From the NCBI GenBank assembly GCA_903875045.1, contig CAIQUS010000090.1, forward strand, positions 1 through 39,506: a stretch of 39,506 nucleotides of DNA, read 5' to 3'. Both the position numbers and the translations under genes were made by a program. The notes beneath the pieces are model-generated. The model saw nothing but the letters and a program-made list of their open reading frames with translations, was not told the DNA's origin and searched no databases. How positions within the stretch are numbered: position 1 is the stretch's first letter; each line of letters begins with the position of its first letter. This document shows positions 2,662 through 39,506 of this stretch, one piece after another. Origin of the DNA: an uncultured Bacteroidales bacterium. GTDB lineage: Bacteria > Bacteroidota > Bacteroidia > Bacteroidales > FEN-979.

Positions 2662-2874
2662 AATTTTGAATTTTAGGTTAATAAATAAAGGTTAGTTAAA
2701 TAAAAAGGGACCAATATTGCTATTGGCATATATATTGGGGGAAATAAGGTTGCAAATCAGCACTATAACAAAATTGAAATAAGTTCGCAAGATACGGCAT
2801 TTTTTAATACAGATGAAAAGTTTTCAGCAATTATTTGTTTTTAGGCTTATTGCCGAAATATCATGGACAAAGGA
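2662..2874. other. Intergenic spacer between two minus-strand surface-protein genes
   Basis: An AT-rich 213-base gap. It must hold the promoter of the partial gene at 1-2661. The best -7 candidate on the minus strand is CAATTTTG (2768-2775), one base off TAnnTTTG, without a convincing -33 partner. I see no clear terminator hairpin for the gene ending at 2875. Confidence 0.4.
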
Positions 2875-4500: not shown

Positions 4501-4533
4501 AGTAGCATGGTTTTTGGGGTTTTGTTTCGTTCT

Positions 4534-4541
4534 CAAAGGTA
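4534..4541 (-). promoter_or_regulatory. Bacteroidota -7 box for the 2875-4500 gene
   Basis: TACCTTTG on the minus strand matches TAnnTTTG. Transcription should begin about 5-8 bases downstream, leaving a leader of about 28 bases before ATG 4500. It overlaps the upstream TTG and so excludes that codon as start. No clear -33 TTG is seen at the usual distance. Confidence 0.6.
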
Positions 4542-4679
4542 CAGAATGGTTTGCTGATAACCTAATTTTAAATTATCCGGGTCTAAATCCCAAATAGGGA
4601 CTTATCCATAGCATATCTGCAACAGTAACATCCGTTTTTATTTCTATCTTTACAGTGTTTAATTGACCTGATCCTTCTC

Positions 4680-10600: not shown

Positions 10601-11810
10601 CAGCCAGCCGCTATTTACCACTGGTTCAACTACCCAAACAGTTACCTATTTTCTTTCTTCCGCCCTGGATGGTTGCGTCAGCCCGGTTTCCCAATCAACC
10701 GTACTGACCTATCCGGTTCCCGATGTCACACTGACCCCTTCCGCACAATCGGTTTGCAGCGGTCAATATACCGGCATCACGCTGCAGTCGCAATTGTCGG
10801 GCACTACTTTCCCATGGACCGCTACAGGCTCTGCTGGTGTTGCGGGGTATTTTAACGGAATGGGCAATACCATCGCCCAGCTTCTTACCAATGCCACCAA
10901 CACCCAGGGTTGGGTAAACTACTCCGTTACACCCGTTGTTTCGAACTGTTCCGGACCGGTTTCCTCTGTGCTGGTCAATGTTTATGTCAATCCTGCCGTC
11001 TCATTTTCCATTTGTTCCGACACCATCACCACCACATCCGGAAAACCATTTCTGCTTCGGGGCGGGTTGCCACGCGGCGGAGTTTATACCGGAGCAGGGG
11101 TGGATTCCGGCACAGGATTGTTTGATCCTTCATTGTCCGGTGCGGGGAATTTCCAGGTCACCTATTCCTATACAAATTCATATAACTGCTCTTCAGGCAT
11201 AACTGGTACTATGCACGTTTTGCCGGATATGCCATTTATCTGCAGCAACTTATTGAACGATGTGCGTGATGGTCATCAATACCCGACTTACCTGCTGCCG
11301 AATGGAAAATGCTGGATGAAAGAGAATTTGGATTTTGGATTGACGATTTCGGATTCAGGTCCTCAAACCGACAACTGTATGGTAGAAAAATATCATCGGT
11401 ATTCCACATTCAATAATCGATATTCGTCATATTATCAATGGGACGAACTCATGCGTTACAACCCGGTTCCCGGTTCCCAGGGTTTATGTCCGCCGGGATG
11501 GCATGTTCCAACATCCGCTGAATGGGACGAACTGGTTGATTTCAACACAGGGCCCGGCCAGGCTGGCGGCCCGATGAAGGATCAATGGCTGGCCAACGGT
11601 TTTCATTCATATCAGCAGGGGTTTTTATATCTGAACAACTCCTGGGCATTTACATCAGGACTGTATGCCGGAACGATGTACTGGACCTCGAACCCACAGG
11701 GTGATGAACGGGCAATGGCCAGGGGATTGAACTCATATACACCGAGTGCATCGATGTACCCGTCATCCAGGGGGAATGCCTTTACTGTGCGCTGTACGAA
11801 GGATTTGTAG
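4680..11810 (+). CDS. Giant secreted protein: three propeller-in-PKD repeats, PKD-like array, C-terminal FISUMP
   Basis: 2376 residues from ATG 4680, with a signal peptide (LLGFLTGCLTLLLPVPDLSAQ). Three repeats of about 400 residues start near 29, 424 and 825. Each opens with half a PKD domain (PDTVC.G...YYWNFCSG), continues with about six blade-like repeats (WLGF...NKLVRLNFGTSL.N.P), and closes with the other half of the PKD domain (PPAFSYN.AGTYNIRLIVNEG). Residues about 1222-1366 hold two Ig-like domains (LGNDRSICPGTTTILDAG). Eight PKD-like repeats of about 92 residues follow (about 1367-2100), each starting near a Cys motif such as SQSVC.G and carrying FSWTA. A FISUMP domain closes the protein (about 2183-2376: CWMKENLDFGL, LCPPGWHVPTSAEWDEL, FTVRCTKDL). 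No T9SS sorting domain is visible, so the means of surface attachment is unclear. It is probably an adhesin or binding protein outside the outer membrane. Divergent from the 2875-4500 gene. Confidence 0.9.
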   Translation: MNVSRPLLGFLTGCLTLLLPVPDLSAQVAGFLSPDTVCTGELITLTNTTVGGTTWYWNFCSGNANQNPSGLNIGNPGNLLDIPTYLTLVKQGNDCFSFISCQGVGVVRYFHGTSFKNNPVSWTNLGTFGAISFSQEGIQVKEDNGQWYGIVCSDTKLVRLNFGASLWNTPTATNLTFAGLNMLHGLVVIKEGTTWLGFATCSTGNKLVRFNFGTSLGNVPVMTDFGNLAGFSSPGALCLVQENTLWYGMMMAGGNTLARITFGNSLLNTPTGVNLGNPGGFSSAIGLTLIRDCESTVGYWVNYLSPGQLGKLVFPTGITGSVTGTVLGNIGSLAQPHSFSEIFRQNDTLYAYITNRQNGTLTRLTFPPCSNASVPSSTMFNPPAFSYNTAGTYNIRLIVNEGLPNQSTICKSIVVLAAPCNPVAAFTAPDTVCVGSTVNITNQSTTGATYYWSFCSGNALSNPLGVNIGNPGNLLNIPGYSTLVKDASGTCYSFITNQGTMSVVRYNHGTSFSNNPVSWTNLGGFGMLSDTVLGIKIKYDNGQWIGFVNNNNRIVRLNFGASLGNAPTATLLGPYAMLNTAHCIDIFKEGATWFGYITCSWGNKLVRLNFGNSLLNTPVLTDLGIPGAMNLPASFRFINENGTWYGLVANFGNNTMTRLTFGSSLLNDPTGVNLGVVCPGIITPGGITLIRDCGGTTGFQLNYSTSSPDLIWRLSFPSGITGPVTGTSLGNIGAMNRPSMFSELFRVGDTLFLYATNRQNFTLTRLRFLPCSNASVPSSTLYNPPAFSYNQPGTYNIQLIVNEGLPDQATLCKSIVVLAAPCNAAAAFTAPDTVCVGTPINVINTSTGGTSYYWNFCSGSASANPAGINIGNPGNALNQPVYNTLVQDGTDCYSFVTNHGSPTHITRNYHGNSFRNNPVSSTIILQNGIIHQYCEAIQIRKENGNWYGFVNNNTTIHRINFGASITNNSPTTTDIGPFPNIAVAHGLVIVKEGTTWLGFFDSSDQNKLYRLNFGTSLANIPVFSDLGNLAGFSHPCQIASVKENGTCYLLIVNFDGNSLSRVNFGTSYLNTPTGQNLGNCGAMVAPIGITVLNDCETTTAYYTEYLPSATTTLGKLTFSGGIGGTVTAQSLGNIGTLHYPVGFSELFRQNDSLFAYVANQYSSSLTRFSFPPCNNASIPSSTLFTPPAFSYNAPGTYPVRLVVNEGQYTEASVCHSIVVMPQQIVNLGNDRSICPGTTTILDAGAGFTSYLWSTGATSRMITVGTAGSYWAKGTKYGCEDYDTVVVSVYPFTPVNLGPDPTVCDGQTVTFDAGTCWNCNYLWSNLTTGQTNIGTGQTYTTGNAGIYSVLLTSTDGCISRDTIQLFTNPTPTVTNWPLFQSICSNNHVIINLTSGIPGSNFAWTVTASSPDVTGWSNGVGLSINQLLLNTSAIDQTVTYHITPFIGSCSGPVVDYIVTVKPVPDVSASPPSQSVCNGASVTISLSSGISSASFTWSASGSPPAISGFYSGFGPNIIQPLYNSGQTIGTVTYQITPIANGCPGTPLVYNVPVMPQPDVVINPPAQIICSGNSTTIALTASSALTTFSWTASLSSGNITGYSGGSGDTISQLLTNPAFTPGSINYSITAEISGCLFPPVICPVTVNPSPSITNSGIVSEMCSGAYTSFTPVSTVAGTLFSWTAVGNSPDLTGYIPGNGNSITQQLFNSGFTNPSVIYTVTPYALGCSGAPGIFTAIVHPIPDINFSPASTTVCTGDPVSIQLNSQAQPALFTWTATGSSAFITNYSGGTGPAIQQVPQNTGPDPETVTYTVTPASNGCSGVPVPYIANINPRPVLTISSYPSSLCSGELFSLAFSSATTGTLFSWSASATSPSVSGYSSGNGNNLSHTLQNQGSTVESVTYLITPQANGCAGTTSTVVVYIKPKPDLIFNPDSQSVCYGQHAQIVLSSSFPGAICSWTATGSSPAVTGYTDGTGNTISQPLFTTGSTTQTVTYFLSSALDGCVSPVSQSTVLTYPVPDVTLTPSAQSVCSGQYTGITLQSQLSGTTFPWTATGSAGVAGYFNGMGNTIAQLLTNATNTQGWVNYSVTPVVSNCSGPVSSVLVNVYVNPAVSFSICSDTITTTSGKPFLLRGGLPRGGVYTGAGVDSGTGLFDPSLSGAGNFQVTYSYTNSYNCSSGITGTMHVLPDMPFICSNLLNDVRDGHQYPTYLLPNGKCWMKENLDFGLTISDSGPQTDNCMVEKYHRYSTFNNRYSSYYQWDELMRYNPVPGSQGLCPPGWHVPTSAEWDELVDFNTGPGQAGGPMKDQWLANGFHSYQQGFLYLNNSWAFTSGLYAGTMYWTSNPQGDERAMARGLNSYTPSASMYPSSRGNAFTVRCTKDL
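4764..5935 (+). repeat. Propeller-in-PKD repeat, unit 1
   Basis: First of three coding repeats, residues about 29-419 of the 2376-residue protein. Marked by FLSPDTVC at the start and NTAGTYNIRLIVNEGLP at the end, with about six blade-like motifs between. Confidence 0.8.
5949..7136 (+). repeat. Propeller-in-PKD repeat, unit 2
   Basis: Second unit, starting AAFTAPDTVCVGSTVNITN and ending QPGTYNIQLIVNEGLPDQ. Clearly homologous to units 1 and 3 along its whole length. The offset from unit 1 is about 1185 bases. Confidence 0.8.
7152..8336 (+). repeat. Propeller-in-PKD repeat, unit 3
   Basis: Third unit, starting AAFTAPDTVCVGTPINVIN and ending APGTYPVRLVVNEGQ. It looks the most diverged of the three by eye (for example HGSPTHITRNYHGNSFRNNP in blade 1). 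Confidence 0.8.
8788..10995 (+). repeat. Eight-fold PKD-like coding repeat
   Basis: Eight units of about 276 bases (92 residues). Their Cys motifs are QSICSN, QSVCNG, QIICSG, SEMCSG, TTVCTG, SSLCSG, QSVCYG and QSVCSG. Each unit has a downstream WTA/WSA, a Y..G.G motif and VTY..TP. They match PKD-like/Ig-like domains seen in many Bacteroidota surface proteins. Confidence 0.8.
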
Positions 11811-23821: not shown

Positions 23822-23973
23822 TTACTGTGTTTGCCTTCAAAAAGTGTGATTTTTCGGTATTGCCTTAAATTATTTGTTACCCGTTTAACAATATTTGCAT
23901 GAGCCAGATCAATTCACCTGTTTTCCCTTCCCTTTTCCGTCAGCAGATAATTTTTACCATAAAACCAAATCCC

Positions 23974-26826
23974 ATGAAATTTGTTTTTACCTTGTTCATC
24001 ACGATGGCATTTCTTCCTGTACTCCTTGCCAACAACATTTCCATCAGCAACCTGAGCCTTACAGGCAAGAACACGACCGACCATTACACGATGGTGCAGT
24101 TCGACATCTCCTGGGAAAACTCCTGGCGTAAATCCACTGCCGAAAGCAACTGGGACGCCGCCTGGGTTTTTGTGAAATACCGGGTAGCCGGCGGAGCCTG
24201 GCAACATGCATGGCTTAATGAAGATGGTCATACGGCTCCGGCAGGAAGCACCCTCACGCCCGGTTTGCTAACTCCCGACGCAGCATTTAATGCCACCACC
24301 AACCCGGGACTTGGCGCATTTATTTACCGTGACGCCAACGGCACTGGCACCTTTTCCAAAACCGGGGTACAGCTCCGCTGGAACTATGGCGCCAACGGCG
24401 TGGCAGACGGAGACTTAGTTGAGTTTAAGTTGTTCGCCATCGAAATGGTGTATGTGCCGCAGGGTGAATTTAAAGTAGGCAGCGGAGGAACCGAATCGGG
24501 AAGTTTTACCAATGGGTCCTGGACAGGCGGGGCAACCATCCCATTGTCAATTTCTTCCGAAATCACATTGACCATTGGTCCATCGGCCGGCAACCTTTGG
24601 GGCACCTCCGGCAGTGGAAGCAATACCATTGGTGGAACCGGAACACTGGGTGTAGCTTTTCCTAAAGGTTATGGCGCATTTTATTGTATGAAATACGAGA
24701 TCAGCCAGCAGCAGTATGTTGATTTTCTGAACACGATTACTTCAACGCAAGCTGCCAATCGCTATTCATCGGGCAGTACCGGCTACAGATACGGCATTTC
24801 GGCATCAGGCGGTGTTTACAGTACATCCAACCCTTATGTTGCCTGCAACTTCCTTAGCTGGATGGATGGCGCTGCCTACACCGATTGGGCAGGTCTGCGC
24901 CCGATGACGGAACTGGAGTTTGAAAAAGCCTGCCGGGGAACAGCAACACCGGTAGCCAACGAATATGCCTGGGGCAATACAACTGCCATTGCAGCCAATA
25001 ACATTACCAACGGAGGCGCCAGCAACGAAACCACCAATACTACGGATGCCAATGCGGTTTTTCACAATCACCCAATTGATCAGGCAGGCCCGATGCGTAC
25101 AGGTGTTTTTGCCACAGGCAGCACCAGCCGTGCACAAGCAGGAAGCACTTACTTCGGGATTATGGAAATGACCGGTAACCTGTGGGAGCGAACGGTAACC
25201 CTTGGCAGCCCGACAGGCCGGGCCTTCACCGGGGTACACGGCAACGGAACGCTGAGCACTGCCGGAAATGCCGATATTTCCACATGGCCGGGATATGTTA
25301 CGACTGAAGTAACCGGCGCCACAGGATCGGGCTTCCGGGGCGGCAGTTTTCTTGATGACTATATGAACATCTCCAACCGCCAACTGGGCAGCTTCGATTA
25401 TTCCGCCAGGTTCAACAATGACGGCTTCCGGGCGGTGCGTACCCAACCGCCCTTTACCTGCGGCGTTTCAACCATCACCATTAACCATGTAACTACAGGC
25501 GGGGTAGCCCCTGTGGATAAACCGGTAACCTATGGCACAACATCCACCACCCTCTTTGGCGGAACAAAATGCGCGATTACCAGAAATCTGGGCGCCAGCC
25601 AGCAGGCAACTGCCGCCAACGATGCTACCGAAGCCTCTGCCGGCTGGTACTGGCAATTTAACCGTAAGCAGGGATGGGAATATAAAACCTCACGTTTGCC
25701 CGTTACTCCCGCCTGGGTTTCAACAAACGACAATTTATCTGCAACCTGGGAGGCGGCCAAAGATCCCTGCACCCTCGAATTTGGCGCAGGCTGGCGTATC
25801 CCGACCAATACAGAATGGACTGCTGCAAATACAAACGGTTCATGGGGAAATTATACCGACACCTATAATTCACTCTTAAAACTTCATGCTGCCGGGTACC
25901 TGAGCAACAGCGATGGTTCGCTGAACGTTCGCGGCTCAGGCGGCTACTACTGGAGTAGTACCCAGTACGATGCCACCAACGGCTGGTACCTGGACTTCTA
26001 CAGTGGGTTCAGCTACATGAGCTACAACGGCAAGGCGTACGGTTTCGCGGTCCGCTGCCTGAAAGACCTGCTCCCAACCGTTACCACCACGGCTGTTACA
26101 TCAATTACATCCTCCACGGCATCTTCAGGTGGCAATGTGACCGACGATGGCGGAAGTACCATTACCGCAAGGGGCGTATGCTGGAGTACAACCGCAAACC
26201 CTGTCGCTACCGGCAGTCATACCACTGATGCAGGCACAACGGGAATTTTTACAAGCAACATCATTGGTCTTTCCGCTGGCACGATCTACCATGTTCGGGC
26301 TTACGCTACCAATGCTATTGGCACAGCCTACGGCAATGATTTGAGTTTTACAACCACCGCGAGTTGTTTTATTGCCGGAACAAAAATCAGCATGGCTGAT
26401 GGTTCAGTTAAGAATATTGAGGATGTTTTGGTTGGCGACCAGGTGAAATCGGTAAATACCGAAACCATGGAAATCGTTACAGAAACTGTTACAAATACTT
26501 TTGCCAACCTGCCAGCCGGCAATCTGACAAAAATCACTTTCAGCAATGGGCAGACCAACACCAATACAAAAAATCATCCCTATTGGGTAGTTGGCAAAGG
26601 ATGGAGTTGCGTTGATCCGGCAGCTTACAGCAATTCAAAAGTAATGAATGCAGCACTTTTAGCAGTTGGCGACCAATGCCAGATTTTAGAAAATGGCAAC
26701 CTTGTAACAGTAACCGTTACAGCAATCGAAGATCAGCCACAGATGACCGTGCCAACATTTAATTTTAAGGTAAACCAAACCAAGTGCTATTTTGCGAACG
26801 GCGTGCTGGTGCATAATAAAACTTAG
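23974..26826 (+). CDS. Secreted protein: SUMF1-like, FISUMP, Fn3-like and C-terminal Hint domains
   Basis: 950 residues from ATG 23974, chosen because it gives a signal peptide (MKFVFTLFITMAFLPVLLANN); the frame continues up to ATG 23899. After an N-terminal beta domain, residues about 156-490 are SUMF1/formylglycine-generating-enzyme-like (MVYVPQGEFKVG, MKYEISQQQYVDFLN, LRPMTELEFEKACRG, MEMTGNLWER, FRGGSF, GFRAVRT). FISUMP lies at about 527-705 (CTLEFGAGWRIPTNTEW, YYWSSTQYD, FAVRCLKD). A Fn3-like domain follows at about 706-795. The end is a Hint domain (Cys798 in CFIAGTKISMADGS, TKNHPYWV, terminal VHNKT). SUMF1-like and FISUMP domains share the C-type-lectin fold, suggesting ligand binding; no enzyme activity is claimed. 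The Hint domain should cleave the protein before Cys798. Codons 657-690 are unusual (see findings). Confidence 0.9.
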   Translation: MKFVFTLFITMAFLPVLLANNISISNLSLTGKNTTDHYTMVQFDISWENSWRKSTAESNWDAAWVFVKYRVAGGAWQHAWLNEDGHTAPAGSTLTPGLLTPDAAFNATTNPGLGAFIYRDANGTGTFSKTGVQLRWNYGANGVADGDLVEFKLFAIEMVYVPQGEFKVGSGGTESGSFTNGSWTGGATIPLSISSEITLTIGPSAGNLWGTSGSGSNTIGGTGTLGVAFPKGYGAFYCMKYEISQQQYVDFLNTITSTQAANRYSSGSTGYRYGISASGGVYSTSNPYVACNFLSWMDGAAYTDWAGLRPMTELEFEKACRGTATPVANEYAWGNTTAIAANNITNGGASNETTNTTDANAVFHNHPIDQAGPMRTGVFATGSTSRAQAGSTYFGIMEMTGNLWERTVTLGSPTGRAFTGVHGNGTLSTAGNADISTWPGYVTTEVTGATGSGFRGGSFLDDYMNISNRQLGSFDYSARFNNDGFRAVRTQPPFTCGVSTITINHVTTGGVAPVDKPVTYGTTSTTLFGGTKCAITRNLGASQQATAANDATEASAGWYWQFNRKQGWEYKTSRLPVTPAWVSTNDNLSATWEAAKDPCTLEFGAGWRIPTNTEWTAANTNGSWGNYTDTYNSLLKLHAAGYLSNSDGSLNVRGSGGYYWSSTQYDATNGWYLDFYSGFSYMSYNGKAYGFAVRCLKDLLPTVTTTAVTSITSSTASSGGNVTDDGGSTITARGVCWSTTANPVATGSHTTDAGTTGIFTSNIIGLSAGTIYHVRAYATNAIGTAYGNDLSFTTTASCFIAGTKISMADGSVKNIEDVLVGDQVKSVNTETMEIVTETVTNTFANLPAGNLTKITFSNGQTNTNTKNHPYWVVGKGWSCVDPAAYSNSKVMNAALLAVGDQCQILENGNLVTVTVTAIEDQPQMTVPTFNFKVNQTKCYFANGVLVHNKT

Positions 26827-26918: not shown

Positions 26919-29900
26919 ATGAAAAAGATGAAACTTACCCTGGTCATGTTACTTTTACTGCCGATCATTTCAATGGCACAGCACACTGGCGGCGTCGGCC
27001 GCGGAGATTATTCTGCTTATTTCGTTGACCCGGTGGTAGTAACCACAGAACCAGTCGCCGGAGGGCCAATTGCCTACACAACCCTGAAAGCGGCGTTTGA
27101 TGCCATTAACCTGGGTACGCACCAGGGAATTATAACGGTAAAAATCAATGCAAGTACGACCGAAACTGCCAGCGCTGTTTTACATGAAAGCGGATATTCA
27201 TCCGGATCTGGTAAATCGGCAGTCGGGTCAAGTTACACAGCTGTCCATATTTATCCCACGATGGCTGGCCTCACTATCAGCGGGAACGTAAATGCCCCGT
27301 TAATTGATCTGGACGGGGCGGATAGCGTGACCATTGACGGAAGGGTCAATCAAACGGGAGCCAGGGACCTCACTATTATAAACAGCTCCGTTTATACCGG
27401 CAGCGACCAGTATGTTGCGGCCATCAGGTTGATAAACTCTGCCCAGACTAACATCGTCAAATATTGTAACATCAGGGCTTGTGCGGCGACAGTGGACGGT
27501 ACTTTCTTTTCAAACAGCGCTGTGGTGTTTTTTTCAACGGCATCTGCCGGCAGTGGCAACAGCAACAATACCATCGACAACTGCGATATCACCACCGCAA
27601 GCTCCAGTCTACGCCCATACAGGATGGTTCATTCTCTCGGATCGGCTGGTTTCGAAAACAACAGCAACACAGTCTCCAACTGCAATATTTACGATTGCTT
27701 TAAAAGTTTATCCACCTCCAACGGAATTTTCATTTCATCCAACTCCTCCGACTGGACGATCACCGGTAACAATTTGTACGAAACAACACCGGTTGTTCCT
27801 GGACACAACAGCGTCATCTATTATTTTATCCGGGTGGATAATACTACGGGAAATAATTTCACCATTTCGGATAATTTCATCGGTGGTACTGCTTCCAACC
27901 ACACGGGAACATGGACGGTGAGCGCTGCGTATACCCACAGTTGCCAGGCTATCTACCTGAATGTTGGCACCACCACCGCCAGTAGTGTTCAAAACAACAC
28001 CATCCAGGGTATCGCATATACCAGTACATATCCGAAACCATTTTCCGGAATTTATATTACGAATGGTTTAGTCAATGTTGGAACGGCAACAGGTAACACA
28101 ATTGGTTCAGCTACCGGAACAGGGAATATCACTGTTACAAATACTGCCACAAATGCCACAACCTATGGAATTTATACCGAAGGTTCGGGAACTGTTTCCA
28201 TCCGGAACAACACAATAGGCTCGATTACGACCATGGGTTCTGCCACTACCGGCAATAGTTTTTATGGAATTTATAAATACCCCAGCGAAGGAACAACAAC
28301 CATCAGCGATAATGTGATTGGAAGCACATCAAGTGCAAACAGCATCAAGGCCAGTGGAACTTCCACCGGCAATCCTCAATACGTTTATGGAATACTTTGT
28401 TATGGATCAGGTTCGAACATGATAAATGGAAATACGGTTGCGAATTTAACGAATAGCACAACCAATGTAAACACTGGCACTATGGGTCAGGTATTCGGGA
28501 TTAATTCAGCGCAGGGGGCCAATACAGTAACCAACAACAATGTAAATTTCCTGACAATTGCCAATGCAAACAATTCGACAACATCGGTGAGTGTTGCAGG
28601 AATTTCAGTTACGGGAACCGGGGCAGCCCAGACAGTTTCGGGCAACATCGTGCATGATTTGTCGAACACATATGGCTCTTTTGCGGGCAGTGTTGTTGGT
28701 TTATATCTGCCCCTGCCAACCACTGCTGCAAATACCATTGCACAAAATTTCATATATAATTTATCGGTAAACGCTACAAGCAGTGGAGCATCTATATATG
28801 GTATTAAAATTGTCAGCGGCTTATCCACCTACGCCAACAACATCATCAGTTTGGGGGGAACCACCAGCACCAACCTTTATGGAATATATGAAACAGGCAC
28901 GGCTGGTAACGACAACAATTTGTATTTTAATACGGTATATATTTCAGGCAGCAGTGCTTCCTCCTATAAATCGTATGCTTTATACAGTGCTGCGAATACA
29001 AACATCCGCGACATCAGGAATAACATTTTTTCAAACCTTCGCATCCAGGGTGCCGGCAAATCGCCGGTAGTAACGTCAAGCTACAACTATGCCATATACT
29101 TTGTAGCAACCGGAGGAACTTTAACCTGCGATTTTAATGATTATTACGTATCAACAGCCCCTTTCAGTGGCGGCGTGCTGGGATATTTCAACGGCGACAA
29201 AACGGCTTTACCAATTGTAACCGGGGGCTTCGGCAACGATTATCACAGCTTTGCCAATGACCCGGCATTCACCGGTGCAGGCGGCACGATGGCGAACAAT
29301 TACAAGGCTACGGCCACCACCCTGGCTGGCGTTCCGGGTACCGGGATCACCACCGATTATGAAAACAGTGTAACAAGAAGCACGACCGCGCCGGCCATGG
29401 GCGCCTGGGAGTATGCCGTTACTCCGCCTGTTTATCCTGTCGAAGTAACCGCTTCTTTGGGATATGCCGGCCCGTTGGGCTACTACACCCTAAAAGATGC
29501 CTTCGATGCCATCAATGCCGGCACCCACAAGGGTGTCATCGCCATTGCGATCAAAGGCAATACCACCGAAACAGCTGAGGCACAATTACTGGCTTCCGCC
29601 GGCACTTCAAGTTATACGGCTATAACCATTTCTCCTTCCGGCGGCGCTGCCCGAACCATCAGTGGTAACCTTACCTATTTCCTCTGTTTATTCGATGGGG
29701 CTGACAATGTAACCGTTGACGGGTTAAACACGGGTGGCAATTCGCTGACCATTGAAAATACGAATACCGGCACGAACGCTTCATCTGTTACGTTTGATAA
29801 CGATGCCCACAACATCACGGTTACCAATTGCACCATCCTGGGGTCCTCAACCTCCACCAGCAATACAGGAACGGTTTTTTTTGGCATGGGCAGCACCGTA

Positions 29901-32900
29901 ACGGGCAATAATAACATAACCATTTCCCATTGCAACATCGGCCCGTCGGGCAGCAATTTGCCCTATATCGCCATTTATTCACCCGGCGGCTTAACGGAAG
30001 CCCTGGCAAACAGCGGCAATACCATCAGTTATAACAACATTTACGACTGGTACAACCCTTTTGGCAGTGATTATGCCATTATGTTTCATCCCCAAAGAAA
30101 CAATATAAACTGGACCATCGATCATAACAATTTTTACCAGACAGCCCCGCGCACCAAAACAAACGCTTCGGCCACCAACAGTTATGCGATGTCTTTATCA
30201 GGGGTCTTTAGCTACGGACATTCTATAACCAACAATTGCATCGGCGGCAGCACGGCCGGGTGTGCCGGTGATCCGATGAGCTACTCGAGCAGTGCCGCAG
30301 GCAATGTAACCTTTGAGGCTATTTACATGCACCAGGTGGACCCGGCGACCAAAGCCAGTTGCACCATTCATGGCAATGTGATTAAAAATATAGCGCTGAA
30401 CGCCGAGGCCGGCGTTGCCATTAACGGTATCAGCGTGCAGGCAGGAGCATATTCGATCGATAACAACGTGATAGGTTCCGGTTCATCGGGAGGCAGTATT
30501 TCCCTTGTCTCTGCAACCAAAGGAGCCGCTGTTTACGGGATCTATTGTACCGGCGCAGCTGTCATATCCAGCATCAACAATAACTCAATCGGTGGAATTA
30601 CCCTGGATGGCCGGGGCACTGTCACTTCTAATTATTTTACCGGAATTTATATTTCAAGCGAGACAGCCTCCATCGATGAGATAAAAAACAATACCATCGG
30701 CAGCCTCACCTTTCCCAATTCCGTGTCGATCACAAATTCAACAGGCGTTTGCCGGATGTTTTACAATGGCATAAAACTGTTAGCTTTCACATTGGGGACA
30801 AGAATTATCGATGGCAATACCATCGCCAACATCACCCTGGCCAAAGACGCCACCAGGCCCAGCGCCGAATACTGCTCGGGCATCAACTCGGCAGTCCCCG
30901 ATGCCACCATCAGCAACAACGAGATATTTAATCTGAAAAACGGTTTAATTTATCAGGGTGCGTTACTAAGTGAATCGTATGCACCGGTGGTAGGTATCTA
31001 CCTGAGTCATGCGAGCGGTACGACAACTGTGCGCGCTAACAAAATCCATGGGTTGAATTGCACCAGTACCACCAGCACTTCTGCTGTGTCGATGACCGGC
31101 ATTTACAAGGGGGGTAATGGCCTGGCGGTCATTGACCGGAACTTCATCTACGGGATATCATCGGATGCGACAACCTCAACGGGTTTCGATATCCGCGGAA
31201 TTTCGGCGTACCTGTCAGGAACCCCTTCACCGGAGGCTACCGTGACCATCAGCAACAATATCGTCATGCTCGGATTGGACGATGCCGGTAATAATTTACC
31301 CCATAACCACCAGTATTTTGGGATTTACCTGAATTACACCCAAAGTGCTGATGTTTATTACAACACGTGCTACATCGGCGGAACAGGCAATACAGGATAT
31401 GGAAATTCCAGCGCCTATTACCAAAGTGCAACTCCCCTTGAGGATGTCCGCAACAATATTTTCTACAACGCCCGTGCAAACGGCACAGCCACTGGAACCC
31501 ATTATGCCATCTGGAGCAACGATGCCACTTTTTCGACCATCGATTACAACGATTATTACACCTCAGGCACCGGTGGAGTTTTGGGCAGGGTAATCGGCAC
31601 AAATAAAGACGACCTGGCTGCCTGGAAGAGTGCCACTCTGCAGGACACCCACAGTGCAAATACAGATCCGGCCCTTGCCACCCCGGGAGGCATCCTGGCA
31701 ACCAATTACAAGCCATCCACCTCAACACTGGTTGGCGCAACGGGCACCGGCATCACAACTGATTATGGCGGTACTGATACCAGGAGTAATATCTATCCGT
31801 CGATGGGTGCCTGGGAATACACGGTTCTCCCTCCGCCTTTCGTAGAGGTAACCGCTACCGAAGGAACGCTTACCGGGGGTTATTATACCTTACAGGCGGC
31901 ATTCGACAACATTAACCAGGGAATCCACAAAGGCGTCATTACCATCAAAATCACAGCCAGTACCACCGAAACTGCCACGGCTGTTCTATATCATAGCGGT
32001 TATACCGCTGGTAAATCTCCAACCGGATCAAATTACGATTCTATTACAGTCTATCCCACCGCCGCAGGTCTCTCCATCAGCGGCAGTATCGACGGGCCGC
32101 TCGTGGATTTACACGGGGCCGACAATGTCGTCATTGACGGAAGGGTGAACCAGGCTGGCGCGAAAAGTCTCACCATTGTTAACACTTATGGAGCTGGAAG
32201 TACATTACCGGTATCGGCCATACGGTTTATTAACTCGGCTGAAAATAATAAAGTTAAATATTGTACAGTGAAAGCTTCTGCCTTAAACGTTTTCAGCGGC
32301 GTGATTCTTTTTTCAACTGCGACCGCAAGCAATGGAAACAGCGGGAACAGGATTGACAACTGCGATATTACCCAGGATGTGAACCGTCCGTTCAACGTGG
32401 TTATTTCAGTTGGTTCTTCCGGATTTGAGAATAAAAACGATACTGTTTCCAACTGCAACATTTACAATTGTTTTAAAAATGATGCAAGTTCAACAGGGGT
32501 CTGCCTCCTTGATTTTTCAACCGACTGGGTAATCAATGCCAATAATTTTTACGAAACAGCCACGGTTGCTCCCAACGGGGCATTTGAATATCGTTATATA
32601 TATGTGGTAAATCCTTCAGGAAATAATTTCACAGTTTCAAATAATATCATTGGGGGTAACGCAGCCGATCACACAGGAACCCTGACGATCAATGGAGCCT
32701 CCTGGCATAGTTTTACGGGTATCCACATGGAAGTTGGGTCAACCACGGCGAGTTCGGTACAGAACAATACCATAAAAAACATGTCCTATACCAATATTGG
32801 TTCATATGCATGGGTTGGAATTGGAATTGCTGAGGGTAAAGTAAACGTTGGCACTTTGGTCGGCAACACAATCGGCTCATCAACGGGAACCGGTTCCATC

Positions 32901-35900
32901 ATACTGGCGAACTCAACCGCCAACAGAACTTCCTATGGCATTTACACTTTTCAGGGAGAAATGAACATTCAGAATAACGAGATCGGATCAATTACCACCA
33001 TCGGCTCAGCAACATACGCACATAGCTTCTATGGAATATTCAATGAAGGCACGGCAACGGGACCCACCACCATCAGCAACAATGTGATCGGAAGCGCTGC
33101 TACAGCAAACAGCATCGATGCAAGTTCAATCTCCGCAACCGGCATCCAGGTCGTTTATGGGATTTTTAACGCCGGAACAGAAAGTTCAACAATTTCGGAC
33201 AATATCATTGCCAACCTTGCAAACGGAACCACGAATTCTGTTGGAAGCATAATTGGCTTGTACCATAATGGCTCAACAACGGCAGGTGCGGTATCACGTA
33301 ATTTTATTCAAAATTTATCGGCTACCGGCGCGGGTAGCACGACTGCCAGTATTTATGGAATGAAAATAAATACCAGTTCAGCCACCTACGCCAACAACAT
33401 CATCAGTTTGGGCGGAACCACCGCCACCACGCTGTATGGAATTTATGAAACAGGCGCTGCAGGCAACGTCAACAACCTGTATTACAATACGGTATATATA
33501 TCCGGTAACAGTACCACAACCAGCTCCTACGCCCTGTACAGTGCAACGGCCAACACCGCACGCAATATCAGGAACAACATCTTTTACAATGCCAGGACTA
33601 AAATAGCCGCCAAATCAGCGTCGGCAGTTCAGGCTCAGCATTATGCCGCCTATTTTGCGTCACCCGGTGGCAATTTAACCTGCGATTACAACGATTATTT
33701 TGTCTCCCCATCGGGGGTCCTGGGGTATTACATCACGTCGAAAACAGCATTGCCGATCGTGACGGGTGTAACAGGAAACGACGACCACAGTGCAAAATTG
33801 AATCCGGTCTTTGCCGGTCCAGGGGGGACGACTGCTGCAAGTTATTACAAGCCTTCTGAAACCCTGCTGGTTGCCCAGACAGGCACAGGAATCACCTCAG
33901 ACTATGCCGGCCTCATCACCCGCAGCGATATTTATCCTGCCATGGGAGCCTGGGAATATGCAGTAACCCCACCCTGTGCCAACCCGACCAATGGCGGCAC
34001 GATTGCGGCTGATCAGGCAAATTGCGGCAGTTTCGACCCGGATGAGATTACCAGCACCGCGCTTCCCTCCGGTCAGGTGGGCGTGTTGGAATACAAATGG
34101 CAACAATCAACGGATTATAGTTATTATGGCGATATTGATGCAGCTACAGCTGCAACCTACAATCCCGGAACCCTTACACAGACCACCTGGTACAAGCGGG
34201 TTGCCCGGGTAACCTGCAAGGCCGACTGGACCGGTGCCATTTCATCGAATGTGGTGAAAATGAGTGTCGATCCAACCACCGTTGGCGGATCAGTTGCAGG
34301 CGGCACCAATGTGTGCACAGGCACCAACAGCACCCTGTTAACCCTGAGCGGGCATACCGGCAGCGTGGTGAAATGGCAATACCTTGAAAACAGTGGATTT
34401 GCTCCGCCTGTCTGGCTTGACATTACCAGTGCAACCAACACAACCTATACGGCTGTCAATTTAACTGTTCCCACGCAATATCGTGTTGTGATTAAGAGCG
34501 GCGTATGTGCAGAAGAAAACTCGTTGCCAACAACTATTACCATTGATCCCGCCACGGTAGCAGGTGTTGTTACCGGCGGCGTGCATGTTTGCACAGGCAC
34601 CAACAGCACCGAACTTACTTTGAGCGGCCACACCGGCAGTGTTGTAAGATGGGAATACCAGGAGGTTCCGTCCGGTGATGAACCTGTCCAATGGCAAGAT
34701 ATCCTGGCAGCGACTTCAACTACATATACAGCAACCAATCTGACTGTTACAACCCAATACCGGGCAGTGGTCAAAAGCGGTGCATGCGGTGAAATGACCT
34801 CAACGATTACAACCATCACGGTTGATCCCACCAGTGCAGGCGGGTCAGTTAGCGGCGGGACAACCGTGTGCACCGGAACCAACAGCACATTGCTTACTCT
34901 GAGTGGTCAAACAGGTAGTGTGGTCAACTGGCAATATCGGCCGGGTGGTATACTGGCAGCAGTTGACTGGCAGGATATTCCTGGCACCACGAATACAACC
35001 TATACCGCAACCGGTTTGACGGCTACCACCCAGTACCGGGCAGTTGTCAAGAGCGGGACCTGCGCGGAGGATAATTCCACTCCGGCAACTGTAGCGGTCA
35101 TCGAACCCTCCAGACGATACGTTACCCAAGCCGGGGCAGGTTCCAAAAACGGAACCACCTGGGCGAATGCCTATGACAAGACTCAGCTTCAGACAGCCAT
35201 CAACGAATACTGTGTGAACGAGGTGTGGGTTGCAGCCGGAACCTATGTGCCAACAACCCTGGCGGATCGTACCATCTCTTTCCAGATGAAAAACGGGGTA
35301 GCCATTTATGGCGGTTTTGCCGGAAGTGAAGTGACGCTGAGTGAACGAAACCGGACAACCAATGTAACCACCTTAAGTGGCGATATCGGAACCCCGGGAA
35401 ATACAACGGATAACAGTTACCATGTGTTCTACCACCCAAGTGGACTGGGCTTGACAGCTTCTGCCATACTCGATGGATTTACCATCACCGGCGGCAACGC
35501 AAATGGTCCTTCCCCGAATAACAATGGTGCGGGTATGTACAATAACAGCAACAGTCCTTTAATAAGGAATTGTACTTTTGGTTCAAATACAGCCAGTAAT
35601 GGCGCTGCCATGTTTAATGTTGCCGGAAGCAATGTCTCACTGGTCGACTGCGAAATAAAATACAACGAGGCCATTGGAACAGGTGGCGGAGGTTTCTGGA
35701 TCAATGATGGTTGTCAGATCACGATGACCAATTGCCTGATCTATGATAACTCCTCACCAACCTGGGGTGGCGGCATGATCATTCTGGCTGGTGCAACTGC
35801 CACCCTCACCAATTGTACGTTGTCGGAGAATTCATCTGAGTTCGGCGGAGGCCTTTACAATGCAGGTGGAACCTATGTTATCAACAATTCGATTTTATGG

Positions 35901-38900
35901 GGGAACACCTCCACGCAGTGGGGCAACCAGATAGAAACGACCAACGGAATCTCCACCACCCTGAACTATTCCTGCTTTGCAAATGTGTATGCCGATCCTG
36001 TGTGGGATGTGGAAGGTCCGGTGATCAAATATTCATCTATCAATACCAACCCTGCCTTTGTTTACCCGGGCGGGGATGACTTCCGTCTTCTGGGGAATTC
36101 TCCATGCATAAACACCGGTTACAATGCTTACAATACCCAGCTTACCGATATCCGGGGACAGGCTCGTATTCAGGACACCACCATTGACATGGGGGCGTAT
36201 GAATGGACAACCGGGACCGATCCCGCCTACGGCAACGTATTTGTAAAGTATGATGCAACAGGCACCAACGATGGTTCAAGCTGGACAAACGCTTACACCT
36301 CTTTTCAGTCAGCACTTGAAACAAACCTGATTTCCGGTGATAAAATCTGGGTTGCTGCGGGAACCTATTACCCAAGTTCTTCCTACGGACTTGATCCTTC
36401 CAATACCAATCCAAGGTATAAACATTTCCGCATGGTTCCAGGAATTTCCATCTATGGCAGTTTTGTCGGGAATGAGGATGTGACCACATACGATTTAGCT
36501 CTGAGGAACTTCGATCTTAACAAATCCATCTTCAATGGCAATATCGGTGTATCAAATGATTCTACCGACAATTGCTACCATGTATTTTATCATCCTGACG
36601 GAGTTGGTTTAACGGCAACAGCTGTACTGGATGGTTTTGAAATCAGGGACGGAATGGCCAACCTTGGAGGTGATTTCCAGGATGGAGGCGGAATGTTCAA
36701 CGTAAACAACAGTCCTACCCTGAGAAACTGTTCTTTCTACAAAAATGTTGCATCCGAATGGGGAGGAGCCATGTATAACAGCAACAGCGATCCTTTGGTT
36801 ACCCGGTCCCTGTTCACCCGGAACCGTGCTTTGGTCGATGGTGGAGCCGTATTTAATAATAATGACAGTGACCCTGTATTTACTTCATGTGGATTTGTCC
36901 AGAACCTGGCAACCTTCAGCGGAGGCGCCGTGTATGCCAAGGAAAACTCCAATCCGCAATATACCAATTGTGTTATGGTTTATAACCATGCCATGTACGG
37001 AGGAGGCTCCTTTGCCCAATCGGAGGTTCATTATACCAATTGCACCTTTGCCTACAACATTGGCTACCAGGGCGGAGGGTTGTCGAATGAAGCCAATGTG
37101 ACGATGGACAATTGCATTGTTTGGGGAAACAGCGGCGTTGTCGGCAAACAGTTGCATATTCTGAGTCCGACTACCACAACGATGAATTATTCCGACTATT
37201 CCAACGGGGACAATGATGTAAACGGAACTCCCGTTGTGTCGAATTGTATCACGACCAACCCATTGTTTGTGAATACGACAACCGGTGATTTCCGCATTGA
37301 TCCTGCCTCGGGATGTGCCGATGCCGGGCTGAATTCGAGTAATACCGAGGAAACTGATGTTCGGGGTACCGGTTTCGCCAGAAAGCTGAACAAGACAACC
37401 GGCGCAGCAGGAACCATTGACATGGGGGCCTACGAATTCTGGTTTGGCATTGACCTGGCAAATCCGACAAACGGAGGCACCATTGCGGAGGATCAAACCG
37501 GCTGCACCCCGTTCGACCCTGCGCTGATTACCAGCACAGCATTGCCCACCGGGCACACCGGTACCTTGGAATACAAATGGCAAAGTTCAGTCAATAACAC
37601 TGATTTTGTCGACATTGCCAGCGCTACCACCACAACGTACAATCCCGGGCCTCTTACAACATCCACCTGGTTCAAACGCGTTGCACGGGTAAATGGCATG
37701 GGCGACTGGATAGGCGCCGCTTCATCCAATGTACTGAAAATGACCGTTGATCCTACCACCGTGGCAGGTACAGTAACCGGCGGCACGCATGTGTGCGGCG
37801 GAACCAACAGCACCGAACTGACCTTAAGCGGTCACACCGGAAGTGTGGTGAAATGGCAATATCTGCCCACTGCAATCGGCAAATCAAGTGTTGATTGGAT
37901 CGATATTCCCGGCACAACCTCAACCACTTACACGGCAACAGCCCTCACAGTTACCACCCAGTTCAGGGCAATGGTAAGAAGTGGTGTCTGTACCGAAGAA
38001 GGTTCTTCTCCAACGACCATGACGGTCGATCCGGCCAGTGTTGGAGGATCGGTTGCCGGCAGTCAATCAGTTTGCACAGGCACCAACAGCACAGTGCTGA
38101 CCTTAAGCGGACAAACAGGTGTTATAGTGAAATGGCAATCATTTAGTAGCGGACCAGACTGGGAAGATATTTCCGGCCAGACATCCGCTACTTACACAGC
38201 AACTGATTTAACCTCAACAACGCAGTATCGAGCAATTGTCAAGAGCGGTACCTGCAACGAGACCAACTCCATTCCGGCCACTGTTACCGTTGATCCCGCC
38301 TCCAACGGAGGCAATGTTTCCGGCAGCGCCACAGTATGTTACGGCACAAATAGCACCCTGTTAACTCTCTACGGACAAACCGGTAACGTGGTGAAGTGGC
38401 AATACAACCCTGGCAGCGGCTGGCTCGATATTACAAGTGCCACAAGTACTACTTATACAGCCACCAACCTGACCACCACGACCAATTTCAGGGCTGTGGT
38501 ACAAAGCGGGGTTTGCAGTGCGACACCGGGCGGTTACGCCAATGTCACCGTGCGCCCGCTGTTTGTCGCCCCGGTTGCCAGTGCCAGTCATATCATTTGC
38601 TGGAACACCACCGCAGCAGAGCTCACGGCAACTGCAGCAAGCGGAGGCACAGGACCTTATACTTATCAATGGCAAATCAGCCCCGACTCACTCGCCTGGA
38701 CAGATATTGACGGAGAAACAACCCTCTCGCTCTTGCCCGGGGATCTCTCAGAAACCCAATATTACCGGGTAGTTGCCACCGACAAGGGAACACCATCATG
38801 TTCCGGTGATGTGACAAGCAACTTGGTTAAGATCACCGTTCGCGACCCGTTTACCCCATCGGTACTCAGCATGGAAGGCAGTCAGACGATCTGCAACAGT

Positions 38901-39506
38901 ACAATACCAGGTTCATTAACAGCCACACCCACCCTGGGAGGCAGCGGCCCGCCATTCCTCTACCAGTGGCAAAAGAAAACCACCGGAAACTGGAGCAATG
39001 TCGGGACAAACAGTCTCACCTACCAGCCTGCAAGCCTGAGTTCCAATACACAATACCGGCTTATCGCCTTCGACCAGGGCACCCCTGAATGCGGTTCGGT
39101 ATTCAGTCTGAACGATTTGACAATCACCGTACAAACCGTTCCAAATGCGGGGAGCATTGCAGCAGACCAGTCGATCTGCATTGGCACAACCCCTGCAGCC
39201 TTAACCTCTGTGGTTGATGGCTCTACCACCACCCCTGGTGGCATGATATCATACATCTGGAAATCCTCCGTGAACAGCGGGACTGACTGGACACTGATAT
39301 CTGCAGCAACAGGCACCGGATATGCTCCGGGAGCTTTAACCCAGACAACCCAATTCGCCAGGATTACCGTGTCAACACTGAACAATGTAGCCTGCGAATC
39401 AGTCCATGCCACTGTGACCGTTACCGTTACACCGCTGCCTGCAGCCGTGGCCGGTGACGACAGGCCCATTTGCTTAAATGAAAACACCACCCTTGGCGCT
39501 TCAGCC
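26919..39506 (+). CDS. Giant secreted beta-helix / Ig-like repeat protein (partial, at least 4196 residues)
   Basis: An open frame of 4196 codons from ATG 26919 to the right edge, no stop found (frame checked at about 15 points along its length). Signal peptide MKKMKLTLVMLLLLPIISMAQ. Modules: three parallel beta-helix units (about residues 37-840, 841-1640 and 1642-2345), each starting like YTTLKAAFDAIN.GTH.G.I and ending MGAWEY; four Ig-like domains (2350-2728; GG.V.GG..VCTGTNST.LTLSG.TG); two further beta-helix units of the kind with TFxGG/WVAAGTY and GGGM/GGA repeats (2730-3105 and 3105-3505); four more Ig-like domains (3507-3880); then PKD-like repeats. Repeated AN-rich, Ser/Thr-rich text is typical of exported adhesins. 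A T9SS sorting domain would be expected beyond the edge. Ligand unknown. Confidence 0.88.
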   Translation, partial: MKKMKLTLVMLLLLPIISMAQHTGGVGRGDYSAYFVDPVVVTTEPVAGGPIAYTTLKAAFDAINLGTHQGIITVKINASTTETASAVLHESGYSSGSGKSAVGSSYTAVHIYPTMAGLTISGNVNAPLIDLDGADSVTIDGRVNQTGARDLTIINSSVYTGSDQYVAAIRLINSAQTNIVKYCNIRACAATVDGTFFSNSAVVFFSTASAGSGNSNNTIDNCDITTASSSLRPYRMVHSLGSAGFENNSNTVSNCNIYDCFKSLSTSNGIFISSNSSDWTITGNNLYETTPVVPGHNSVIYYFIRVDNTTGNNFTISDNFIGGTASNHTGTWTVSAAYTHSCQAIYLNVGTTTASSVQNNTIQGIAYTSTYPKPFSGIYITNGLVNVGTATGNTIGSATGTGNITVTNTATNATTYGIYTEGSGTVSIRNNTIGSITTMGSATTGNSFYGIYKYPSEGTTTISDNVIGSTSSANSIKASGTSTGNPQYVYGILCYGSGSNMINGNTVANLTNSTTNVNTGTMGQVFGINSAQGANTVTNNNVNFLTIANANNSTTSVSVAGISVTGTGAAQTVSGNIVHDLSNTYGSFAGSVVGLYLPLPTTAANTIAQNFIYNLSVNATSSGASIYGIKIVSGLSTYANNIISLGGTTSTNLYGIYETGTAGNDNNLYFNTVYISGSSASSYKSYALYSAANTNIRDIRNNIFSNLRIQGAGKSPVVTSSYNYAIYFVATGGTLTCDFNDYYVSTAPFSGGVLGYFNGDKTALPIVTGGFGNDYHSFANDPAFTGAGGTMANNYKATATTLAGVPGTGITTDYENSVTRSTTAPAMGAWEYAVTPPVYPVEVTASLGYAGPLGYYTLKDAFDAINAGTHKGVIAIAIKGNTTETAEAQLLASAGTSSYTAITISPSGGAARTISGNLTYFLCLFDGADNVTVDGLNTGGNSLTIENTNTGTNASSVTFDNDAHNITVTNCTILGSSTSTSNTGTVFFGMGSTVTGNNNITISHCNIGPSGSNLPYIAIYSPGGLTEALANSGNTISYNNIYDWYNPFGSDYAIMFHPQRNNINWTIDHNNFYQTAPRTKTNASATNSYAMSLSGVFSYGHSITNNCIGGSTAGCAGDPMSYSSSAAGNVTFEAIYMHQVDPATKASCTIHGNVIKNIALNAEAGVAINGISVQAGAYSIDNNVIGSGSSGGSISLVSATKGAAVYGIYCTGAAVISSINNNSIGGITLDGRGTVTSNYFTGIYISSETASIDEIKNNTIGSLTFPNSVSITNSTGVCRMFYNGIKLLAFTLGTRIIDGNTIANITLAKDATRPSAEYCSGINSAVPDATISNNEIFNLKNGLIYQGALLSESYAPVVGIYLSHASGTTTVRANKIHGLNCTSTTSTSAVSMTGIYKGGNGLAVIDRNFIYGISSDATTSTGFDIRGISAYLSGTPSPEATVTISNNIVMLGLDDAGNNLPHNHQYFGIYLNYTQSADVYYNTCYIGGTGNTGYGNSSAYYQSATPLEDVRNNIFYNARANGTATGTHYAIWSNDATFSTIDYNDYYTSGTGGVLGRVIGTNKDDLAAWKSATLQDTHSANTDPALATPGGILATNYKPSTSTLVGATGTGITTDYGGTDTRSNIYPSMGAWEYTVLPPPFVEVTATEGTLTGGYYTLQAAFDNINQGIHKGVITIKITASTTETATAVLYHSGYTAGKSPTGSNYDSITVYPTAAGLSISGSIDGPLVDLHGADNVVIDGRVNQAGAKSLTIVNTYGAGSTLPVSAIRFINSAENNKVKYCTVKASALNVFSGVILFSTATASNGNSGNRIDNCDITQDVNRPFNVVISVGSSGFENKNDTVSNCNIYNCFKNDASSTGVCLLDFSTDWVINANNFYETATVAPNGAFEYRYIYVVNPSGNNFTVSNNIIGGNAADHTGTLTINGASWHSFTGIHMEVGSTTASSVQNNTIKNMSYTNIGSYAWVGIGIAEGKVNVGTLVGNTIGSSTGTGSIILANSTANRTSYGIYTFQGEMNIQNNEIGSITTIGSATYAHSFYGIFNEGTATGPTTISNNVIGSAATANSIDASSISATGIQVVYGIFNAGTESSTISDNIIANLANGTTNSVGSIIGLYHNGSTTAGAVSRNFIQNLSATGAGSTTASIYGMKINTSSATYANNIISLGGTTATTLYGIYETGAAGNVNNLYYNTVYISGNSTTTSSYALYSATANTARNIRNNIFYNARTKIAAKSASAVQAQHYAAYFASPGGNLTCDYNDYFVSPSGVLGYYITSKTALPIVTGVTGNDDHSAKLNPVFAGPGGTTAASYYKPSETLLVAQTGTGITSDYAGLITRSDIYPAMGAWEYAVTPPCANPTNGGTIAADQANCGSFDPDEITSTALPSGQVGVLEYKWQQSTDYSYYGDIDAATAATYNPGTLTQTTWYKRVARVTCKADWTGAISSNVVKMSVDPTTVGGSVAGGTNVCTGTNSTLLTLSGHTGSVVKWQYLENSGFAPPVWLDITSATNTTYTAVNLTVPTQYRVVIKSGVCAEENSLPTTITIDPATVAGVVTGGVHVCTGTNSTELTLSGHTGSVVRWEYQEVPSGDEPVQWQDILAATSTTYTATNLTVTTQYRAVVKSGACGEMTSTITTITVDPTSAGGSVSGGTTVCTGTNSTLLTLSGQTGSVVNWQYRPGGILAAVDWQDIPGTTNTTYTATGLTATTQYRAVVKSGTCAEDNSTPATVAVIEPSRRYVTQAGAGSKNGTTWANAYDKTQLQTAINEYCVNEVWVAAGTYVPTTLADRTISFQMKNGVAIYGGFAGSEVTLSERNRTTNVTTLSGDIGTPGNTTDNSYHVFYHPSGLGLTASAILDGFTITGGNANGPSPNNNGAGMYNNSNSPLIRNCTFGSNTASNGAAMFNVAGSNVSLVDCEIKYNEAIGTGGGGFWINDGCQITMTNCLIYDNSSPTWGGGMIILAGATATLTNCTLSENSSEFGGGLYNAGGTYVINNSILWGNTSTQWGNQIETTNGISTTLNYSCFANVYADPVWDVEGPVIKYSSINTNPAFVYPGGDDFRLLGNSPCINTGYNAYNTQLTDIRGQARIQDTTIDMGAYEWTTGTDPAYGNVFVKYDATGTNDGSSWTNAYTSFQSALETNLISGDKIWVAAGTYYPSSSYGLDPSNTNPRYKHFRMVPGISIYGSFVGNEDVTTYDLALRNFDLNKSIFNGNIGVSNDSTDNCYHVFYHPDGVGLTATAVLDGFEIRDGMANLGGDFQDGGGMFNVNNSPTLRNCSFYKNVASEWGGAMYNSNSDPLVTRSLFTRNRALVDGGAVFNNNDSDPVFTSCGFVQNLATFSGGAVYAKENSNPQYTNCVMVYNHAMYGGGSFAQSEVHYTNCTFAYNIGYQGGGLSNEANVTMDNCIVWGNSGVVGKQLHILSPTTTTMNYSDYSNGDNDVNGTPVVSNCITTNPLFVNTTTGDFRIDPASGCADAGLNSSNTEETDVRGTGFARKLNKTTGAAGTIDMGAYEFWFGIDLANPTNGGTIAEDQTGCTPFDPALITSTALPTGHTGTLEYKWQSSVNNTDFVDIASATTTTYNPGPLTTSTWFKRVARVNGMGDWIGAASSNVLKMTVDPTTVAGTVTGGTHVCGGTNSTELTLSGHTGSVVKWQYLPTAIGKSSVDWIDIPGTTSTTYTATALTVTTQFRAMVRSGVCTEEGSSPTTMTVDPASVGGSVAGSQSVCTGTNSTVLTLSGQTGVIVKWQSFSSGPDWEDISGQTSATYTATDLTSTTQYRAIVKSGTCNETNSIPATVTVDPASNGGNVSGSATVCYGTNSTLLTLYGQTGNVVKWQYNPGSGWLDITSATSTTYTATNLTTTTNFRAVVQSGVCSATPGGYANVTVRPLFVAPVASASHIICWNTTAAELTATAASGGTGPYTYQWQISPDSLAWTDIDGETTLSLLPGDLSETQYYRVVATDKGTPSCSGDVTSNLVKITVRDPFTPSVLSMEGSQTICNSTIPGSLTATPTLGGSGPPFLYQWQKKTTGNWSNVGTNSLTYQPASLSSNTQYRLIAFDQGTPECGSVFSLNDLTITVQTVPNAGSIAADQSICIGTTPAALTSVVDGSTTTPGGMISYIWKSSVNSGTDWTLISAATGTGYAPGALTQTTQFARITVSTLNNVACESVHATVTVTVTPLPAAVAGDDRPICLNENTTLGASA
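27030..29440 (+). repeat. Beta-helix unit A of the giant protein
   Basis: Starts near VVVTTEPVAGGPIAYTTLKA, ends MGAWEYAVTPP. Shows parallel beta-helix rungs such as NNTIGSITTMGSATTGNSFY and NNIISLGGTTSTNLYGIYE. Confidence 0.75.
29442..31840 (+). repeat. Beta-helix unit B of the giant protein
   Basis: Starts VEVTASLGYAGPLGYYTLK, ends MGAWEYTVLPP. Similar in plan to A and C but more diverged. Confidence 0.75.
31845..33960 (+). repeat. Beta-helix unit C of the giant protein
   Basis: Starts VEVTATEGTLTGGYYTLQA, ends MGAWEYAVTPP. Closest to unit A: both carry DGRVNQ.GA..LTI.N, and both have NNIISLGGTT followed by LYGIYETG.AGN.NNLY.NTVYISG. Confidence 0.75.
33970..35100 (+). repeat. First Ig-like block of the giant protein
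   Basis: One NPTNGGTIAADQ-type domain, then three with VCTGTNST.LTLSG.TGSVV.W.Y, each about 92 residues. Confidence 0.75.
37450..38560 (+). repeat. Second Ig-like block of the giant protein
   Basis: Again one NPTNGGTIAEDQ-type domain and then three with VC.GTNST.LTL.G.TG..VKWQ, the same order as the block at 33970-35100. Confidence 0.75.

Follow-up and report, generated by a model that had tools for sequence, protein, structure and literature searches.

A probable remote target of a diversity-generating retroelement, with an internal variable region, in an uncultured Bacteroidales bacterium

Introduction

Why should one short segment in the interior of a large gene be enriched in codons ending in C, with every tyrosine written TAC? 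The segment lies in a 39,506-nucleotide stretch of DNA (the window) from an uncultured Bacteroidales bacterium, and an earlier note had proposed that its gene is, or once was, a target of a diversity-generating retroelement (DGR). The variable region (VR) of a DGR target is nearly always found at the end of its gene. We have compared the segment with the rest of its own genome, assembled in 253 contigs and labelled G000, and with related genomes; G and C labels denote genomes and contigs.

The gene and its codon bias

The gene occupies positions 23974 to 26826 on the forward strand, where all window features given below also lie, and has 950 codons, or 975 if an upstream ATG at 23899 is used. 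An FGE-sulfatase (SUMF1-like) domain at 24676 to 25440 (PF03781, 47.9 bits versus a cut-off of 23.3; residues 260-514 on the 975-residue reading) is followed at 25453 to 26073 by the domain that bears the segment in question. This domain scores below the curated cut-offs of both PF09603 (21.9 bits versus 33.9) and TIGR02145 (29.5 versus 41.65) and is therefore called FISUMP-like; 20 of the 24 members of our alignment A1 match PF09603 (E<=0.1). Next come an Fn-like linker stretch, named by eye and without a Pfam match of its own (26074 to 26361), and a C-terminal Hint or bacterial-intein-like domain (26362 to 26817; PT-HINT 39.3 bits versus a cut-off of 27.7), in which the match to the bacterial intein-like domain 2lwy (E=1.5e-7) spans residues 797-948 of 950. 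Downstream, a giant open reading frame (26919 to 39506) encodes at least 4196 residues and continues past the end of the window; it contains Beta_helix, Ig_7 and DUF5123 domains. Its relatives stand directly behind such genes on G015 C218, on G009 C541, C506, C436 and C189, and on G029 C147, and locus L040 is a weaker relative (31%).

C is the last base in 21 of the 34 codons from 25942 to 26043 (the earlier note had counted about 22) and in 321 of the gene's other 916 (Fisher p=0.0017, uncorrected), and the non-overlapping 34-codon stretches of the gene contain at most 20, none having 21. Tyrosine is encoded by TAC eight times and never by TAT in the segment, versus 15 TAC and 17 TAT elsewhere in the gene (Fisher p=0.006, uncorrected), and asparagine by two AAC and no AAT, versus 37 and 33 in the other 916 codons. 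As had also been noted, this bias is missing from the two further FISUMP genes in the window: the gene at 4680 to 11810 has 7 C-ending codons in 34, and that at 2875 to 4536 has 9-11 in 34, with five TAT and two TAC, in three overlapping, in-register frames between 3721 and 3852. The former encodes a protein of 2376 residues with seven PKD_5 stretches and a Fib_succ_major domain at its C-terminus. This family (PF09603) has 77 matches in the 6-Mb genome, a large domain expansion.

The codon bias is real, modest when taken alone and decisive together with the template comparison below. So modest a bias might by itself be put down to chance or to an expression preference with no retroelement involved. 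That explanation is refuted by the template match, and the reverse transcriptase, the adenine-specific differences and the homogenised synonymous sites also speak against it; we give it practically no credence.

A DGR cassette on contig C29

The earlier note had suggested searching the genome for an adenine-biased DNA match beside a reverse transcriptase. With 25882 to 26066 as query, 28 matches were found in G000 at E<=10, the best after the window itself being C29:4607-4790 (84%) and C29:3592-3776 (82%), and a search with RVT_1 found three reverse transcriptases (RTs), one of them at C29:5396-6082. The 84% match thus adjoins a DGR-type RT, and a template exists in the genome, although on a different contig from the window.

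Contig C29 (6828 bp) carries a RadC-family gene, followed by a gene for a variable protein of 1008 residues (757-3783), an open reading frame without a Pfam match (3871-4449), an AAC-rich template repeat (TR; 4607-4790), a bAvd gene (4849-5199; PF22296, 55.2 bits versus a cut-off of 40) and the RT gene (5165-6355; RVT_1, 60 bits). The closest solved relative of the RT is 8ub7 (E=8.3e-37), which we take to be the BPP-1 RT, and its translation contains IGNLTSQ and YVDD, presumably motifs of DGR-type RTs. NCBIfam gave the RT matches below cut-off only, group_II_RT_mat being the best (105.5 versus 300). Between the TR and the local target, 20 of 57 A and none of 124 other bases are changed, and therefore the cassette has been active in the manner expected of a DGR. 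With its DGR-type RT, TR/VR pair and Avd gene, C29 reads as a complete-looking, uninterrupted DGR.

Over 200 bases, the TR is 98.5% identical in the congeners G001 and G015 and 96.5% in G004, and the RT has a match at 1e-20 in 11 of the 100 genomes searched, G000 included. Seven relatives of the RT were found in IMG/VR, and because their identity is at most 46% they give no pointer to a phage. The RTs on C93 and C244 were rejected as candidate cassettes, their flanking stretches having no TR match at E<=1e-3; by eye, the RT on C93 (L031) is retron-like and followed by a FISUMP gene, and that on C244 (L032) adjoins open reading frames resembling cas1, cas2 and Cmr genes. In another genome, G015, positions 1-9000 of C169 (L120) hold two DGR-type RT genes close together (188-1327 and 2469-3653) and a second AAC-rich, template-like stretch (1527-1625). 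Window and cassette are on separate contigs of the 253-contig assembly, for which the contamination estimate is 2.29%, and it is likely that they share one cell.

The rewritten tract

Positions 25886 to 26042 of the window correspond to TR positions 4-160, and here changes affect 19 of 54 template A as against 2 of 103 other bases (p=1.6e-8; G 1/40, T 1/22, C 0/41). In the core of the tract, 18 of 52 A and 2 of 100 non-A positions differ, and the differences are thus not spread over all codon positions, the pattern that the earlier note had named as counting against its reading. The two changes at non-A positions both fall in Thr codons and are synonymous; that at TR 95 is common to the window, the VR on C200 and the TR of G004. 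Fourteen residues are changed, every one replacing a template Asn: N644S, N652V, N656G, N658Y, N665Y, N672Y, N674D, N676Y, N679F, N681Y, N683S, N684Y, N686G and N689Y. The window gene therefore matches the TR except mainly at adenines, as a VR does.

The tract starts at TR 4, where the TR-VR homology of the other targets also starts. Beyond 26042 the pattern ends: in 26043 to 26066 (TR 161-184), where an IMH would lie, the 3 A are unchanged whereas 7 of the 21 non-A positions differ, and an IMH-like 3' end nearly identical to the TR was not found at this place. Twenty bases from 26053 onwards are the same in the G016 orthologue, which marks this 3' segment as native to the gene. The tract begins 56 bases upstream of the interval first pointed out, 25942 to 26043, and ends at 26042; GFAVRCLKD, which had been read as a varying position, is mostly un-rewritten 3' segment.

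We conclude, with a probability of about 0.86, that the DGR on C29 has the window gene as a remote target, with 25886 to 26042 as the VR. The TR, a DGR-type RT and bAvd lie together on C29, and the tract is a copy of the template changed almost only at adenines. By analogy with known DGRs, the RT would copy RNA of the C29 template into cDNA, misincorporating bases at adenines, and this cDNA would replace the matching stretch of the window gene, turning AAC (Asn) codons into codons for Tyr, Ser, Gly, Asp, Phe or Val. Writing would have halted at about 26042, leaving the gene its own 3' segment, and variation of what the target protein binds is the likely purpose. The reading thus supports the proposal that the gene is or was a retroelement target. 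The tract looks recently written, judging from a single assembly, and the gene may still be subject to writing.

Copying from the template versus shared ancestry

Perhaps the tract resembles the template through descent rather than copying. We therefore compared third bases in codons for the same residue between the window gene and 14 other genes, seven from its own genome and seven from relatives. Against the C29 target, third bases are identical at 35 of 37 non-A core sites and at 37 of 72 upstream codons (p=1.8e-6); the corresponding values are 32/33 and 49/94 for C200, and 35/36 and 38/72 for G001 C338. The test gave p<0.05 for 11 of the 14 genes, the exceptions being G015 C218, G009 C541 and G009 C189. 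Genes that match the window gene over their full length have higher upstream agreement and mostly lower core agreement (G015 C218, 75/111 upstream and 20/24 in the core; G009 C541, 71/104 and 19/26). The G016 C209 orthologue (57/87 upstream, 28/30 in the core) has a template-like core of its own, and therefore the effect is not missing from all orthologues. The contrast between core and upstream third positions means that the core and its flanks differ in history: the tract was copied in, its synonymous sites being homogenised with the template while those of the flanks were not. The adenine bias itself was rejected as a dating tool because old paralogues also show A-biased differences; it reached p<0.05 in 11 of 14 paralogue rows, not in C70, C250 and C243, and one alignment, that of C86, is counted twice among the rows.

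The copying could also have been ordinary gene conversion, that is, homologous recombination from another DGR target into a gene which the DGR does not recognise. This is the main rival, and it would account for an internal VR, a missing hairpin element (see below) and a poorly matching 3' segment; moreover, just 1 of 100 non-A sites distinguishes the window core from that of C200. However, no donor was found among 14 other VRs, identity at the 52 core A sites being 22-34 against an expected 26.8-27.5, and 22-29 for the seven VRs of the same genome. The tract also starts at the TR boundary, although homology with the paralogues extends further upstream. A donor rewritten since, or lying outside the VRs compared, is conceivable, and the highest values (34, 33 and 32) belong to VRs of other genomes. 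On balance gene conversion appears improbable, and writing from the C29 template is preferred.

Placement within the gene and the hairpin element

The 3'-terminal position of a VR, usual although not strictly defining, is absent from the window gene, in which 252 codons follow the VR as compared with 0-4 in the genes on C29, C200, C178, C198, C13, C160 and C31. Terminal placement has been ascribed in PMC8144416 to intergenic or non-coding cis elements behind the VR. A short hairpin element, 18 bases long with a stem of 5 bp (TACCGCGTAGCGGTCGAA), lies behind the VRs of C29, C200, G001 C338 and G015 C169, and its 17-base core occurs at exactly two places in G000, behind C29 and C200. Allowing one mismatch, the element was found at six places in 19 genomes of the genus, four being the VRs just named; a further one, in G004, is near a contig end and by eye has no template match. 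The remaining one, on G009 C436 (L228/L216; one mismatch), follows a segment at the C-terminus of a paralogue of the window gene which by eye resembles a DUF1566-type VR, and therefore one N-terminal part may bear different variable domains.

The hairpin element was not found in the window, and folding of the flank of the tract is at the level of shuffled sequences (83 of 200 shuffles as good). A scan for 6-bp stems was overly strict, missing even the 5-bp stem of C29, and its empty result for the window carries no weight. By eye, C178, G014 C241 and G027 C217 have an alternative stem with a loop ending in GCACA. The VR of C198 is terminal and has neither hairpin type, and therefore a missing hairpin is not peculiar to the window. 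By the rules of the Bordetella phage BPP-1 system (PMC3240598), the window gene would be a poor target because of its 3' mismatch and missing hairpin, and this counts against the main reading; residual homing without a hairpin has been reported in the same paper and in PMC12875486.

A further possibility is that the DGR wrote the tract and has since ceased to target the gene. Such a history would not conflict with the main reading and bears on present activity only, and the missing hairpin and poor 3' match would fit it, as would the older-looking tracts of the G015 and G016 orthologues (17 and 11 differences at 100 core non-A positions). On the other side, the window core has two such differences in 100, both synonymous, as against 0-1 in the two hairpin-bearing targets. 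We regard a frozen product as quite conceivable, if rather short of an even chance.

Other targets of the same template

A search of G000 with the TR gave 18 matches, the TR itself included. Core non-A differences rise from 0/100 in C29, 1/100 in C200 and 2/100 in the window to 6/99 in C198, 10/100 in C178 and 16/99 or 16/100 in C13, C160 and C31; older matches differ at 18% to 33% of non-A positions. Across the loci examined, 60 distinct template matches could be compared over at least 120 core positions. Non-A differences were 10% or less in 25 of them, four being templates; four of the other 21 are internal, namely the window, L112, L137 and L115 (the last open-ended). Among the seven with 3% or less the window alone is internal, and two of these (L133 and L134, genome G027) are reading frames with stops in the domain. 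The VR-Fn-Hint module is also present on G015 C218 and, beyond the genus but within the same family, on G029 C147 (L112), where it is followed by the same giant partner gene; the G029 core differs from the template at 18 of 52 A and 8 of 100 non-A positions.

The variable domain and the Hint domain

A structure model from 24 sequences was poor (pLDDT 55.7) and was discarded; a model of the variable domain from 77 sequences was used instead (pLDDT 79.0, pTM 0.81). Foldseek found no match in the PDB at E<=0.001, the top hit being the C-terminal domain of Legionella Lcl (E=0.013, probability 0.97, TM 0.28/0.40) with weak C-type-lectin-like matches below it, and comparing a profile with solved structures yielded three matches of marginal strength, the best at E=0.027. 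A lectin-like fold is likely from the model, and the changed residues map to the last strands of this predicted domain.

The target protein is probably secreted and appears to be a surface protein. It contains CFIAGT, TKNH and a terminal HN, which we assume to be Hint-processing motifs, and because of these the Hint domain probably cleaves itself, which would put the diversified part at the C-terminal end of the mature protein. Tentatively, and with some doubt, we propose that the DGR may write an internal VR by homology of the tract alone, with no hairpin and a poor 3' match, and that self-cutting by the Hint domain may place the diversified part at the C-terminus after translation.

Comparison with known systems

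Like the C29 cassette, the BPP-1 DGR (mtd, avd, TR, brt; PMC3240598, PMC12875486) has its template, accessory gene and RT together, and the two are alike in adenine-specific changes from template to target and in the hairpin element behind the local target. Unlike BPP-1, the best-matching targets here are on several contigs, and the window target is internal and hairpin-less with a poor 3' match. The Treponema denticola DGR (PMC4891356) similarly serves dispersed surface-protein targets from one template, two to seven per isolate, but the TvpA VR is C-terminal, whereas that of the window is internal and precedes a Hint domain. The remote variable proteins of cyanobacteria (PMC7517822) are likewise remote, paralogous targets with a graded match to the template. 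The FISUMP or Fib_succ_major variable proteins of human-microbiome DGRs (PMC4159848) share the variable-domain family; Table 2 of that survey gives FISUMP in 9 proteins and FGE-sulfatase in 42. As described there, it admitted C-terminal VRs only, and a gene of the window type would be missed.

DGRs, remote targets and FISUMP-type variable domains are therefore already known, and the internal, hairpin-less, Hint-linked setting of the VR is new. Among the open papers within the scope of our search, none matched for a DGR with FISUMP, none for an internal VR, and none for a DGR with a Hint or bacterial intein-like domain. Being internal, recent-looking and without the element of the best-matching targets, this VR offers a natural way of testing which features a DGR requires for target recognition. 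Hypervariation is moreover linked here with a Hint domain that probably processes itself and with a giant partner protein of the beta-helix type. If the reading is confirmed, surveys restricted to 3'-terminal VRs overlook some targets.
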